In this document: one piece after another, positions 29,974-33,066 of the stretch
How positions within the stretch are numbered: position 1 is the stretch's first letter
How the letters are laid out: the number at the start of each line of letters is the position of its first letter
Virus record (IMG/VR): IMGVR_UViG_3300030380_003092
Span: 1-37,269 of that record
Length of the DNA: 37,269 nucleotides
Strand: one strand, 5' to 3'
Source of the DNA: a virus
Translations under genes and position numbers: made by a program
The notes under the pieces: generated by a model
Told to the model about the DNA's origin: nothing
The model's input: the letters and a program-made list of their open reading frames with translations, nothing else
The model's database searches: none

Positions 29974-30142
29974 TTTTAAAATTAAACTTTCCTTTGCTTG
30001 GCATTTTGCGTGGACGTGTGGTGCGATACACCCTGCCATCCTCGTTTATTGCCAATTGATTTTTGTTCCAAAATCTGTGCCATCCATCATTTACTTCTCT
30101 TGCGGTGAGGGGGACATCAATTCCTTCCATAAAGTAGTCCAT
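29942..30142 (-). CDS. Small basic hypothetical protein (66 aa)
   Basis: The frame overlaps the 3' end of the methyltransferase by 52 bases and the following gene by 32. The core VNDGWHRFWNKNQLAINEDG with RVYRTTRPRKMPSKGKFNFK looks like a real small domain with a basic C-terminal tail. The start could also be the ATG at 30130. No family recognised. Confidence 0.45.
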   Translation of the reverse strand: MDYFMEGIDVPLTAREVNDGWHRFWNKNQLAINEDGRVYRTTRPRKMPSKGKFNFKNERSKKTVLP

Positions 30143-31368
30143 GCTAGTTCTGCTGTTTGTGGGACAACTCCATTCCCCAAGAGCCTAAGTCTGTCCACCC
30201 TGTGCTGAGTCCCATCAATTGCTCCACGAACGAAGGATTCAATTTCGGTGACCCTTGGTTCTTCCCACTCGTATTGCTCTTCTCCTGGTCTTGCAGGCCA
30301 TTGTGTTTGTCCTCCATGATGTGCTGACATTGCGTGTTCAATGGAAGGTGAAGATTCACTCCTTTCTCCGCTTGTAGCTTCGCTCTCGCTTCCCACTTCT
30401 CCTTGCTCTCCGCAGTCTTGTGGTCTCTGCTTTGTGGTGTTGCCCAATTCTTCTTCGCTTCCTCCGCTAGTATCTTGCCCCCCGTTCCGGGTTTGCGACT
30501 GCCTGGGTTGCCTGCTCGTGGAGTGGGCCAATTCATCTTGGGATTGTTTACATCCTCCCTCAAGTTCTTGCATCCTCCCTTCTTCTTGTTCCTCGCAAGC
30601 GCTTCTCCTGTCTTGGGTGGCAAGTGATCCATCGTGTTTGGTGTTGCCCAATTCATCTGATTCAAGTCTCTCCCCAAGCACTTCTGATTGCTCTCGGGCG
30701 CAGTTCTCGCTCCCTCCACGTGGTCGGAGGCTTGCGGGGTTGCCCATGTGTCCAACTCCCCATTGATTGCCATTGCAGTTAGATTCCTGCTCCTTTGCGT
30801 CCTCTTCTGTCCGTCCTTCTGTAAGCTGTACTTCTCCACTGTATGGGCTTCTGGCGTGGGGTAGTTTCGCAAGGATGAACACTCGTTTCCTTTGGTGTGG
30901 AGCGCCAACTTCTTCCGCTGAGAATATGCCCCACGCGCATTTATAACCTTCTTCTTCCAAATCGGACAGCACTCGCCATAACCCCATCGTGGTGTGTCCT
31001 GCGACATTTTCCCAAAAGCACCAAACAGGTCTAATTGCCCTGACGTGCTTGAGGATATATGGCCATAAGTGTCTTGGGTCTTTTTCTCCTTGTCGCTTGC
31101 CTGCTGAACTGAATGGTTGACAGGGATATCCTCCAATGAGTCCGTGTACTTTTCCACGAAACTCTCGTGCAGGGAAGGTTTTAAGATCCGTCCAGATAGG
31201 TGCGTTATCCATCCTCCCTTCTTCAGTCTTCGCAACCAGGTTTGCTTGGACGAAGGCTTCGATCTCCACATTGCAGATGACTCTAACATCCACGCCTGCT
31301 CTTCTAATTCCAAGTTCAAGCCCTCCGTATCCGGTACAAAAGCTGATAATGTTTTGGGTATTATCCAC
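30091..31368 (-). CDS. DNA (cytosine-5) methyltransferase
   Basis: 425 residues with GTG start at 31368 after AAAGG. Motif I SFCTGYGGLELG (9-20), motif IV GGYPCQPFSSAGKR with the catalytic Cys at about 83, motif VI WENVAG (ENV, 120-122), motif VIII GAPHQRKRVFIL, and C-terminal motif X RLRLLGNGVVPQ are all present. The region between VIII and X, the target recognition part, is polar and repetitive, with four (L/M)(G/A)(N/H)(P/S/T)-type copies (MGNP, LGNT, LAHS, LGNT). It methylates cytosines of phage or host DNA, probably against restriction. A second long frame covers nearly all of it. Confidence 0.92.
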   Translation of the reverse strand: MDNTQNIISFCTGYGGLELGIRRAGVDVRVICNVEIEAFVQANLVAKTEEGRMDNAPIWTDLKTFPAREFRGKVHGLIGGYPCQPFSSAGKRQGEKDPRHLWPYILKHVRAIRPVWCFWENVAGHTTMGLWRVLSDLEEEGYKCAWGIFSAEEVGAPHQRKRVFILAKLPHARSPYSGEVQLTEGRTEEDAKEQESNCNGNQWGVGHMGNPASLRPRGGSENCAREQSEVLGERLESDELGNTKHDGSLATQDRRSACEEQEEGRMQELEGGCKQSQDELAHSTSRQPRQSQTRNGGQDTSGGSEEELGNTTKQRPQDCGEQGEVGSESEATSGERSESSPSIEHAMSAHHGGQTQWPARPGEEQYEWEEPRVTEIESFVRGAIDGTQHRVDRLRLLGNGVVPQTAELAWTTLWKELMSPSPQEK

Positions 31369-31391
31369 ATTACCTTTGGGATTGTTCCCAT
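30144..31391 (-). CDS. Overprinted alternative-frame protein within the methyltransferase gene (415 aa)
   Basis: A 415-codon open frame on the same strand, shifted relative to the C5 methyltransferase and overlapping 1,225 of its 1,278 bases, from ATG at 31391. It is not random-looking: it carries four WATP/WPTP repeats (TWATPQASDH, NWATPNTMDH, NWPTPRAGN, NWATPQSRDH), the segment GECCPIWKKKVINARGAYSQ RKKLA, and LNPSFVEQLMGLSTGWTDL near the C terminus. I recall similar proteins in phage databases, often labelled as methylase-related, so the frame may be conserved. Each WATP repeat falls on a LGNT-type motif of the other frame. Translation, and any function, are unproven; conserved methyltransferase codons could by themselves keep the frame open. 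Confidence 0.45.
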   Translation of the reverse strand: MGTIPKVMWIIPKTLSAFVPDTEGLNLELEEQAWMLESSAMWRSKPSSKQTWLRRLKKGGWITHLSGRILKPSLHESFVEKYTDSLEDIPVNHSVQQASDKEKKTQDTYGHISSSTSGQLDLFGAFGKMSQDTPRWGYGECCPIWKKKVINARGAYSQRKKLALHTKGNECSSLRNYPTPEAHTVEKYSLQKDGQKRTQRSRNLTAMAINGELDTWATPQASDHVEGARTAPESNQKCLGRDLNQMNWATPNTMDHLPPKTGEALARNKKKGGCKNLREDVNNPKMNWPTPRAGNPGSRKPGTGGKILAEEAKKNWATPQSRDHKTAESKEKWEARAKLQAEKGVNLHLPLNTQCQHIMEDKHNGLQDQEKSNTSGKNQGSPKLNPSFVEQLMGLSTGWTDLGSWGMELSHKQQN

Positions 31392-31967: not shown

Positions 31968-32501
31968 ATGCCTAAGCAATACAAACGAAGAGCAAGAAAA
32001 CCTGGGTCTGTACGTGGATTCTGTGATGATATGACAAAAAATAATATAATTAATTCAGCTGCCAAGATTGCAGCAAAACAATCAAACGGAAAAAAAGAAG
32101 CAGAAATCCTAATGAAACAAGATCCAGAACTTCGTAAGTCAATCAGCAACTTCCTACGCTATCGATTAGACATGACAGAACAGGAGTTCCTCAACCAGGT
32201 AAACTCCAAGCTCTCAAACATGGTAGCAGACTCCCTAAACACTCTACACAGCAAGCTAGATGAAATACCTCCACAAAATCTTGCCTACGCAGTCGCAGTA
32301 CTCATGGATAAGTTCCTCACAGTCTCAGGCAGACCATCAAATATAACAGCATCCGCAAATGTGACTCTCGGTGCATCCGATATGTCTCCTGACCAGGTAC
32401 GTTCAATCCTAAAGGGTGCAACCAAACAAGTGAAAAAACAACCTACCAAAGCATCAGAAGATAAAGTCACCGATATTACCCCAGATGACACCCCTGCATA
32501 A
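31968..32501 (+). CDS. Putative small terminase-like protein
   Basis: 177 residues. The N terminus is basic (PKQYKRRARKPGSVRGF), then a helical body (NFLRYRLDMTEQEFLNQVNS). The segment IPPQNLAYAVAVLMDKFLTV continues SGRPSNITAS, a pattern familiar from phage small-terminase and related packaging proteins (dLA-x-A...L-x-DK...GRPS/T). The C-terminal tail (SPDQVRSILKGA...) is polar. It is on the opposite strand from terL and followed by an HNH endonuclease, a pairing often seen in packaging modules. The assignment is a moderate-confidence inference; no DNA-binding motif is certain. Confidence 0.5.
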   Translation: MPKQYKRRARKPGSVRGFCDDMTKNNIINSAAKIAAKQSNGKKEAEILMKQDPELRKSISNFLRYRLDMTEQEFLNQVNSKLSNMVADSLNTLHSKLDEIPPQNLAYAVAVLMDKFLTVSGRPSNITASANVTLGASDMSPDQVRSILKGATKQVKKQPTKASEDKVTDITPDDTPA

Positions 32502-33066
32502 GAAAATCATTGCACTCCGGCAAAAGCAATATTCCTACTCGCAAATCATTAAGGTACTCAAATGTTCACGCTCAACGGTGTCCTACGCATTACGCAAAAA
32601 AACCAGACTACTCGCAAAACAAAAAAACGATAATGCTCCACCACATCATAAAAAAATACGGAACAAAATATATACCTTTAAAAATCCAAGAATCAGAAAA
32701 ACTCCCACTCCTATCTGGTATCTCAATCCTTCACCAAAACAGATAACCAAATCCATTTCCACAAAAGCACATACCTTTCAACGTAGAATGTCATTCAATT
32801 ATAAAGATGTATATAAAAAATATGGTGACACTTTCTCATGCGCACTTACAGGTAGACCACTCAAATTCAATGAGCCTCATACCTATGAATATGATCATAT
32901 CATGCCTCACTCACGGGGTGGAGATAACTCACTCTCTAATCTCCAAATACTCTGCCCAGAAGCAAACCAAGCAAAAGGTATGATGACCGATGAAGAATTT
33001 AAGGATCTATGCAAAGAAGTTATTATTCATGCAGGATATAAAATCTATAAACCTCTAGATATGTAA
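32485..33066 (+). CDS. HNH endonuclease with N-terminal helix-turn-helix
   Basis: 193 residues. Residues 1-40 (IALRQKQYSYSQIIKVLKCS then RSTVSYALRKK) form a resolvase-type helix-turn-helix. Residues 115-172 are the HNH core: CALTGRPLKFNEPHTYEYDH, IMPHSRGGDNSLSNLQILCP and NQAKG. His/Asn residues of the beta-beta-alpha metal site are present; the usual paired Cys knuckle is reduced. The start overlaps the previous gene by 17 bases. It may assist cleavage of packaged DNA or act as a homing nuclease; the linked small-terminase-like gene favours packaging. Confidence 0.75.
   Translation: MTPLHKKIIALRQKQYSYSQIIKVLKCSRSTVSYALRKKTRLLAKQKNDNAPPHHKKIRNKIYTFKNPRIRKTPTPIWYLNPSPKQITKSISTKAHTFQRRMSFNYKDVYKKYGDTFSCALTGRPLKFNEPHTYEYDHIMPHSRGGDNSLSNLQILCPEANQAKGMMTDEEFKDLCKEVIIHAGYKIYKPLDM

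Follow-up and report, generated by a model that had tools for sequence, protein, structure and literature searches.

In C5-cytosine methyltransferases (C5-MTases), motif VIII is followed by the target-recognition domain (TRD), motif IX and motif X, in that order. The beta gene of M.EcoHK31I is said to lie inside the alpha gene in another reading frame, an arrangement reportedly described by Lee, Kam and Shaw in 1995. This enzyme needs two polypeptides; of the motifs, the smaller subunit has only IX, and the predicted TRD is placed in the larger one (PMC3404938). In Bacillus phages, tandem TRDs in one orphan MTase give several recognition sites (PMC8936443).

The window analysed here, the whole 37,269-nt stretch of the viral record IMGVR_UViG_3300030380_003092, holds a locus that we consider highly likely to encode an orphan phage alpha/beta C5-MTase of the M.EcoHK31I type, in which beta would supply target recognition and motif IX, and alpha catalysis and motif X. 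A preliminary description of this DNA had reported two ORFs overlapping on one strand, and both are present with 1,225 nt in common: alpha, the C5-cytosine MTase catalytic subunit, at 31368-30091 on the minus strand (425 aa, GTG start), and beta, in the +1 frame relative to alpha, at 31391-30144 as first reported (415 aa, from an ATG). When the translations were searched against viral proteins, alpha matched phrog_363 (E 6e-55) and beta phrog_1008, a phage family labelled 'DNA methyltransferase' (E 4.3e-29, profile match), and phage C75C1 was found to encode both frames over their entire length. Alpha also matched PF00145 (E 6.4e-33). Searches with beta in Pfam, NCBIfam and the PDB returned nothing useful, with no PDB sequence match. 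Upstream of the MTase, an HNH / endonuclease VII-like gene lies on the opposite strand (32485-33066, plus strand).

The second frame is open from 31391, as had been described, but the ATG there is not conserved among relatives, and the start of beta in the window is most likely the ATG at 31370-31368. This gives an overprinted protein of 408 aa (30144-31370, minus strand; 415 aa for the upstream alternative, 30144-31391) whose start overlaps the alpha GTG (31368-31366) in the word ATGTG (31366-31370). We place beta there because [A/G]TGTG, with the two starts two bases apart, is kept in 56 of 56 distinct contexts having an alpha GTG, and because in 13 of these a beta-frame stop abuts the beta start, so that beta cannot open further upstream there. 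The DNA just upstream of [A/G]TGTG has diverged (median identity 0.31 across the 56 contexts). A putative ribosome-binding site, AAAGG, lies at 31373-31377, where SD-like words occur in 50 of the 56 contexts, and this single site could plausibly serve both starts. A second clade (L045, L059, L072, L073 and L086) has an ATG for alpha and an ATG for beta 7-10 nt downstream.

The main methyltransferase motifs ascribed earlier to the 31368 frame were found, among them GGYPCQPF, ENV, QRKRVF and LGNGVVP, and C5-MTase motifs I, IV (PCQ), VI (ENV), VIII and X are present in order in alpha. On the minus strand, the motif I region FCTGYGGLELG occupies 31309-31341, motif IV with the catalytic Cys (GGYPCQPFSSAGKR) 31093-31134, motif VI (ENVAGH) 30994-31011, motif VIII (QRKRVF) 30877-30894 and motif X (LGNGVVPQT) 30154-30180, the last preceded by a conserved stretch, PARPGEEQYEWEEPRV, at 30250-30297. 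Residues invariant in 41 alphas are S9, C11, G13, Y14, G16 and G20 for motif I, E120, N121 and V122 for motif VI, R160, R162 and F164 for motif VIII, and P358, R360, P361, Q365, Y366, W368, E369, P371 and R372 for the stretch before motif X. The AF2 model of alpha has a confident large domain (residues 1 to ~175) and a C-terminal motif-X helix, with no confident fold in residues ~178-395 between them. In L135, a human gut phage scaffold (MT835926.1, 336-2411), an alpha-type MTase carries an intein-like insertion exactly at the catalytic PCQ cysteine, running from CFDGDTLV... to ...VVHN, with CQPFSVAG resuming.

A 35-nt direct repeat occurs in four copies, at 30420, 30504, 30624 and 30720, with spacings of 84, 120 and 96, all multiples of 3. 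The beta frame reads WATP or WPTP at 30735-30746, 30639-30650, 30519-30530 and 30435-30446, and the alpha frame reads these four W[AP]TP words as MGNP, LGNT, LAHS and LGNT. The preliminary description had noticed four repeats with these two readings; they are the four 35-nt copies, and to them we add a fifth word, YPTP, at 30852-30863. When 70 betas were cut at W[AP]TP-like words, 235 repeats were obtained, with 1-7 per gene; they fall into 48 families, and the 70 genes show 60 different orders of them. The five cassettes of the window gene, all on the minus strand, are YPTPEAHTVEKYSLQKDG... (30747-30863; family 4, in 9 genes), WATPQASDHVEGARTAPESNQKCLGRDLNQMN (30651-30746; family 2, in 44 genes at ordinal positions 1-3), WATPNTMDHLPPKTGEALARNKKKGGCKNLREDVNNPKMN (30531-30650; family 6, in 8 genes at positions 2, 3 and 5), WPTPRAGNPGSRKPGTGGKILAEEAKKN (30447-30530; family 1, in 53 genes at positions 1-4) and WATPQSRDHKTAESKEKWEARAKLQ... 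(30315-30446, 3' limit approximate; family 8, in 6 genes at positions 3-6). One cassette family is thus found at differing ordinal positions, and cassettes are exchangeable. This is the pattern that swapping of target-recognition units would give, and each cassette may read one DNA site.

Selection along the two frames was measured in disjoint pairs of relatives. Each substitution was assigned to a class according to what it does in either frame, and counts were set against opportunity, as the ratio of the alpha-synonymous/beta-nonsynonymous rate to the alpha-nonsynonymous/beta-synonymous rate (SN/NS). For calibration, flanking single-frame genes from the same loci gave 3.99 in alpha register and 0.21 in beta register. 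The ratio is 1.55 for codons 2-60 and ~1.6 for codons 2-80, with both frames selected, and rises to 4.79 for codons 81-100, which hold motif IV and the catalytic Cys and where alpha only is selected and beta is an unselected linker. Motif X, at 6.4, is likewise selected in alpha only. Homologous cassettes compared like-for-like gave 0.066-0.075 (0.066 with a range of 0.046-0.093), which is selection in beta only, with an identity of 0.86 in alpha vs. 0.97 in beta; the result was the same whether cassettes were clustered by nucleotides, by alpha or by beta. A first cassette estimate of 0.86 from an alpha-based alignment, which would have meant equal selection in both frames, was rejected because unlike cassettes had been aligned to each other. 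Downstream of the cassettes, beta carries a motif-IX-like stretch, LNPSFVEQLMGLSTGWTDL (30186-30242, minus strand), that is conserved in 14 distant relatives, and its LNPxxVEQLM core is also selected in beta only (SN/NS 0.07). Changes creating alpha stops are strongly depleted in both the cassettes and the LNP core.

Purifying selection therefore acts on both frames, and which of them it favours changes from segment to segment: it acts in alpha on motifs I-VIII and X, and almost solely in beta on the W[AP]TP repeats and LNPxxVEQLMG. Selection confined to one frame, which the preliminary description had held would tell against a second protein, is not what the substitution classes gave. Since selection in the cassettes and LNP core is beta-only and alpha-stop changes are depleted there, what alpha reads from the cassettes is a passenger sequence kept clear of stops, in agreement with the AF2 model, where nothing is confident between the catalytic domain and the motif-X helix. 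Alpha is thus not a PF00145 member whose single chain has a TRD and a motif IX after motif VIII and before motif X, because its residues ~178-395 have no confident fold and the cassettes and LNP core are unselected in its frame. By itself alpha would be an incomplete C5-MTase, complete only as alpha plus beta.

It had been proposed that an open frame of this length is improbable by chance. We permuted the synonymous codons of alpha and scored the longest +1 open run; the 407 codons observed in the window were reached in 0 of 2000 permutations (mean longest run 131, maximum 353), in line with that proposal. In some of the other relatives put through the same test, up to 1 of 2000 permutations reproduced the open run. 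These figures bear on the explanation that beta is an accidental open frame kept by the codon usage or composition of alpha. The alpha repeats do abound in codons that seldom yield a +1 stop, and permuted alphas hold only ~10 +1-frame stops on average, yet no permutation matched the window, and in the cassettes and motif-IX core beta-frame selection exceeds alpha-frame selection. We rejected an accidental frame, refuted by these substitution patterns, as having almost no chance of being correct. Viral loci retrieved with either protein as query were also compared. Among ~70 non-redundant marine viral relatives with complete genes, all except one keep the +1 frame free of stops over nearly the whole of alpha, and the +2 frame of full-length homologous genes holds about 10-28 stops. 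The second-frame stops that would count against overprinting are thus essentially absent from homologues. The sole exception, L122, combines an intact alpha with a TAG at beta residue 130, ~390 nt past the alpha start, which may be a true null or an assembly error.

Beta is very probably the part that chooses the DNA sequence to be methylated. AF2 of beta alone gave no confident model (mean pLDDT 48), and a profile search of the LNPxxVExLMG stretch against solved MTases gave no match; its position and pattern suggest that this stretch is motif IX. In gene 58 of Gordonia phage Gudmit, a single frame encodes motifs I-VIII, LPTP repeats, LSAAFAEWMMMLPAGW and motif X, and the chain matches both phrog_363 and phrog_1008. 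Because Gudmit has this beta-like part between motifs VIII and X, the beta region appears to take the place of the TRD and motif IX. BLASTP of Gudmit against the window beta aligned the motif-IX-like stretch only (E 0.003), and against a Paenibacillus beta found no match. In the Gudmit locus (L127, 1284-2666 and 1339-2073), the +1 frame holds the first repeats and the MTase frame holds the later ones together with the motif-IX-like stretch, as if this chimeric gene stood between the two-frame and single-chain forms.

Two other ways of accounting for beta can be weighed against this relative. Beta could be a separate functional protein, such as a regulator, an anti-restriction or a DNA-binding protein, with no tie to the MTase beyond their common gene, which would suit a protein that alone has no predicted fold and no solved relative. 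We find this quite unlikely given the beta-like region between motifs VIII and X in the single Gudmit chain, an alpha with neither a confidently folded small domain nor a motif IX of its own, and an overlap conserved across very different phages. Slightly less probable still is a programmed +1 frameshift in alpha that would fuse the catalytic domain to a beta carrying TRD and motif IX, with no beta start of its own. Gudmit shows that a one-chain arrangement is workable, and past motif VIII selection does move to the beta frame, the pattern expected of a frameshift product. However, motif X is again alpha-selected and would be lost after a single shift, beta is selected over codons 2-80, upstream of such a shift, and the RTGTG start is invariant. 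The earlier suggestion of a genuine overprinted second protein, perhaps aiding target recognition, is thus supported by the conservation of the frame and the selection on it, and the TRD is the role that beta would then have.

In the alpha/beta mechanism we favor, one transcript would be read from the two overlapping starts. Alpha would bind the cofactor and carry out catalysis (motifs I-VIII) and would also supply motif X, beta would provide the W[AP]TP cassette array for target recognition followed by motif IX, and the two would assemble into one active enzyme, on the pattern of M.EcoHK31I. Methylation would shield phage DNA from host restriction, and cassette gain, loss and swapping would widen or change the protected sites, every cassette having to remain stop-free in both frames. 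We infer the translation of beta, its association with alpha, its service as TRD and motif IX, the reading of one site per cassette and the anti-restriction role. An orphan, protective role is likely because no restriction gene was found beside the MTase in the window, where terminase and structural genes follow. Counted against the alpha/beta reading were the missing confident AF2 model and PDB match for beta, the unmatched motif IX profile, the beta stop in L122 and the published assignment of the predicted M.EcoHK31I TRD to the larger subunit (PMC3404938), which differs from the one made here.

The +1 pair recurs in phages K1ind2, Bloom, RcRios, Lacticaseibacillus R9.1, Bacteroides BS-TP4, N15 and Vibrio Baybae, in cyanophage Cy-LDV1, Erythrobacter ZS04 and Mycobacterium phages Rhynn and ShroomBoi, and in Enterobacter plasmid pTO42E. 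Hosts of these phages include enterobacteria, Rhodobacter, Paenibacillus (Bloom), Lacticaseibacillus, Bacteroides, Vibrio and mycobacteria. A plasmid search gave few beta-like matches, and in pTO42E, the one plasmid region inspected, there is no restriction gene among the annotated neighbours. Escherichia phage K1ind2 and Paenibacillus phage Bloom have both members of the pair annotated, each as its own CDS. In the deposited annotation of Cy-LDV1 (L130) and ZS04 (L133), the name 'methyltransferase' belongs to the CDS of a truncated beta, and an antisense hypothetical gene is called in place of the open but unannotated alpha frame. A close relative with 62% beta identity (L138, PBSV01000023.1) comes from a contig that binning assigned to an Opitutia MAG; this hints at a verrucomicrobial host, and the contig may also be a free phage.

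It seems likely that these genes form a widespread class of phage MTase in which a whole specificity subunit (cassette array and motif IX) is overprinted on the catalytic subunit, with an overlapping start, selection relayed between frames and dual-frame cassettes freely shuffled, giving combinatorial multispecific anti-restriction. Overprinted pairs this long, with selection measurable in both frames, are seldom met in dsDNA phages, and in this one it is possible to tell for each segment which frame is selected. On this view, many of the phage 'DNA methyltransferases' now entered as a single CDS would miss the specificity subunit. If true, expressing an annotated ORF after a change to its second frame, such as codon optimisation can bring, would yield an inactive or misread enzyme. 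It also gives a direct test of exchangeable-module evolution under two-frame constraint.

The two-subunit kind of C5-MTase is already known, and the near-total overlap, the overlapping start and the dual-coded cassette shuffling are without description in the literature searched, which covered few subscription papers and held no account of this overlap in phages. M.EcoHK31I (YGGCCR), whose published description gives its large subunit motifs I-VIII and X and its small one motif IX, resembles the window pair in layout if the LNP stretch of beta is motif IX, and by this analogy the mechanism most likely works alike. A small-subunit gene nested in another frame, which M.EcoHK31I reportedly has, is also found here. 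The predicted TRD of M.EcoHK31I is placed in its larger subunit, whereas selection puts the putative TRD cassettes of the window gene in beta, and the window beta spans nearly all of alpha, has the start region in common with it and has shuffled cassettes. M.AquI, too, has two polypeptides with motifs IX and X apart from I-VIII (PMC3404938), but its split falls in the variable region and leaves motif X to the small subunit, unlike the window pair with X in alpha and near-complete overlap. PHROG 1008/PHROG 363 pairs (K1ind2 'Mte8-like' protein with a C-specific methylase, Bloom, N15 gene 58) share the +1 overlap, the W[AP]TP repeats and LNP...LMG; both or only one CDS are annotated, with no mechanism given in the annotation, and in K1ind2 and Bloom, which have at most 3 repeats, beta starts 88 nt and 202 nt, respectively, inside the annotated alpha. 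The several tandem exchangeable TRDs that mark multispecific MTases have a counterpart in the 235 repeats, 48 families and 60 orders of our census, provided that the cassettes are TRDs. Bacillus phage C5-MTases of the SPR, SPbeta and H2 type likewise have tandem TRDs in one phage orphan MTase (PMC8936443), in a single chain and a single frame, whereas the window cassettes are dual-coded and the TRDs would sit on a separate subunit.
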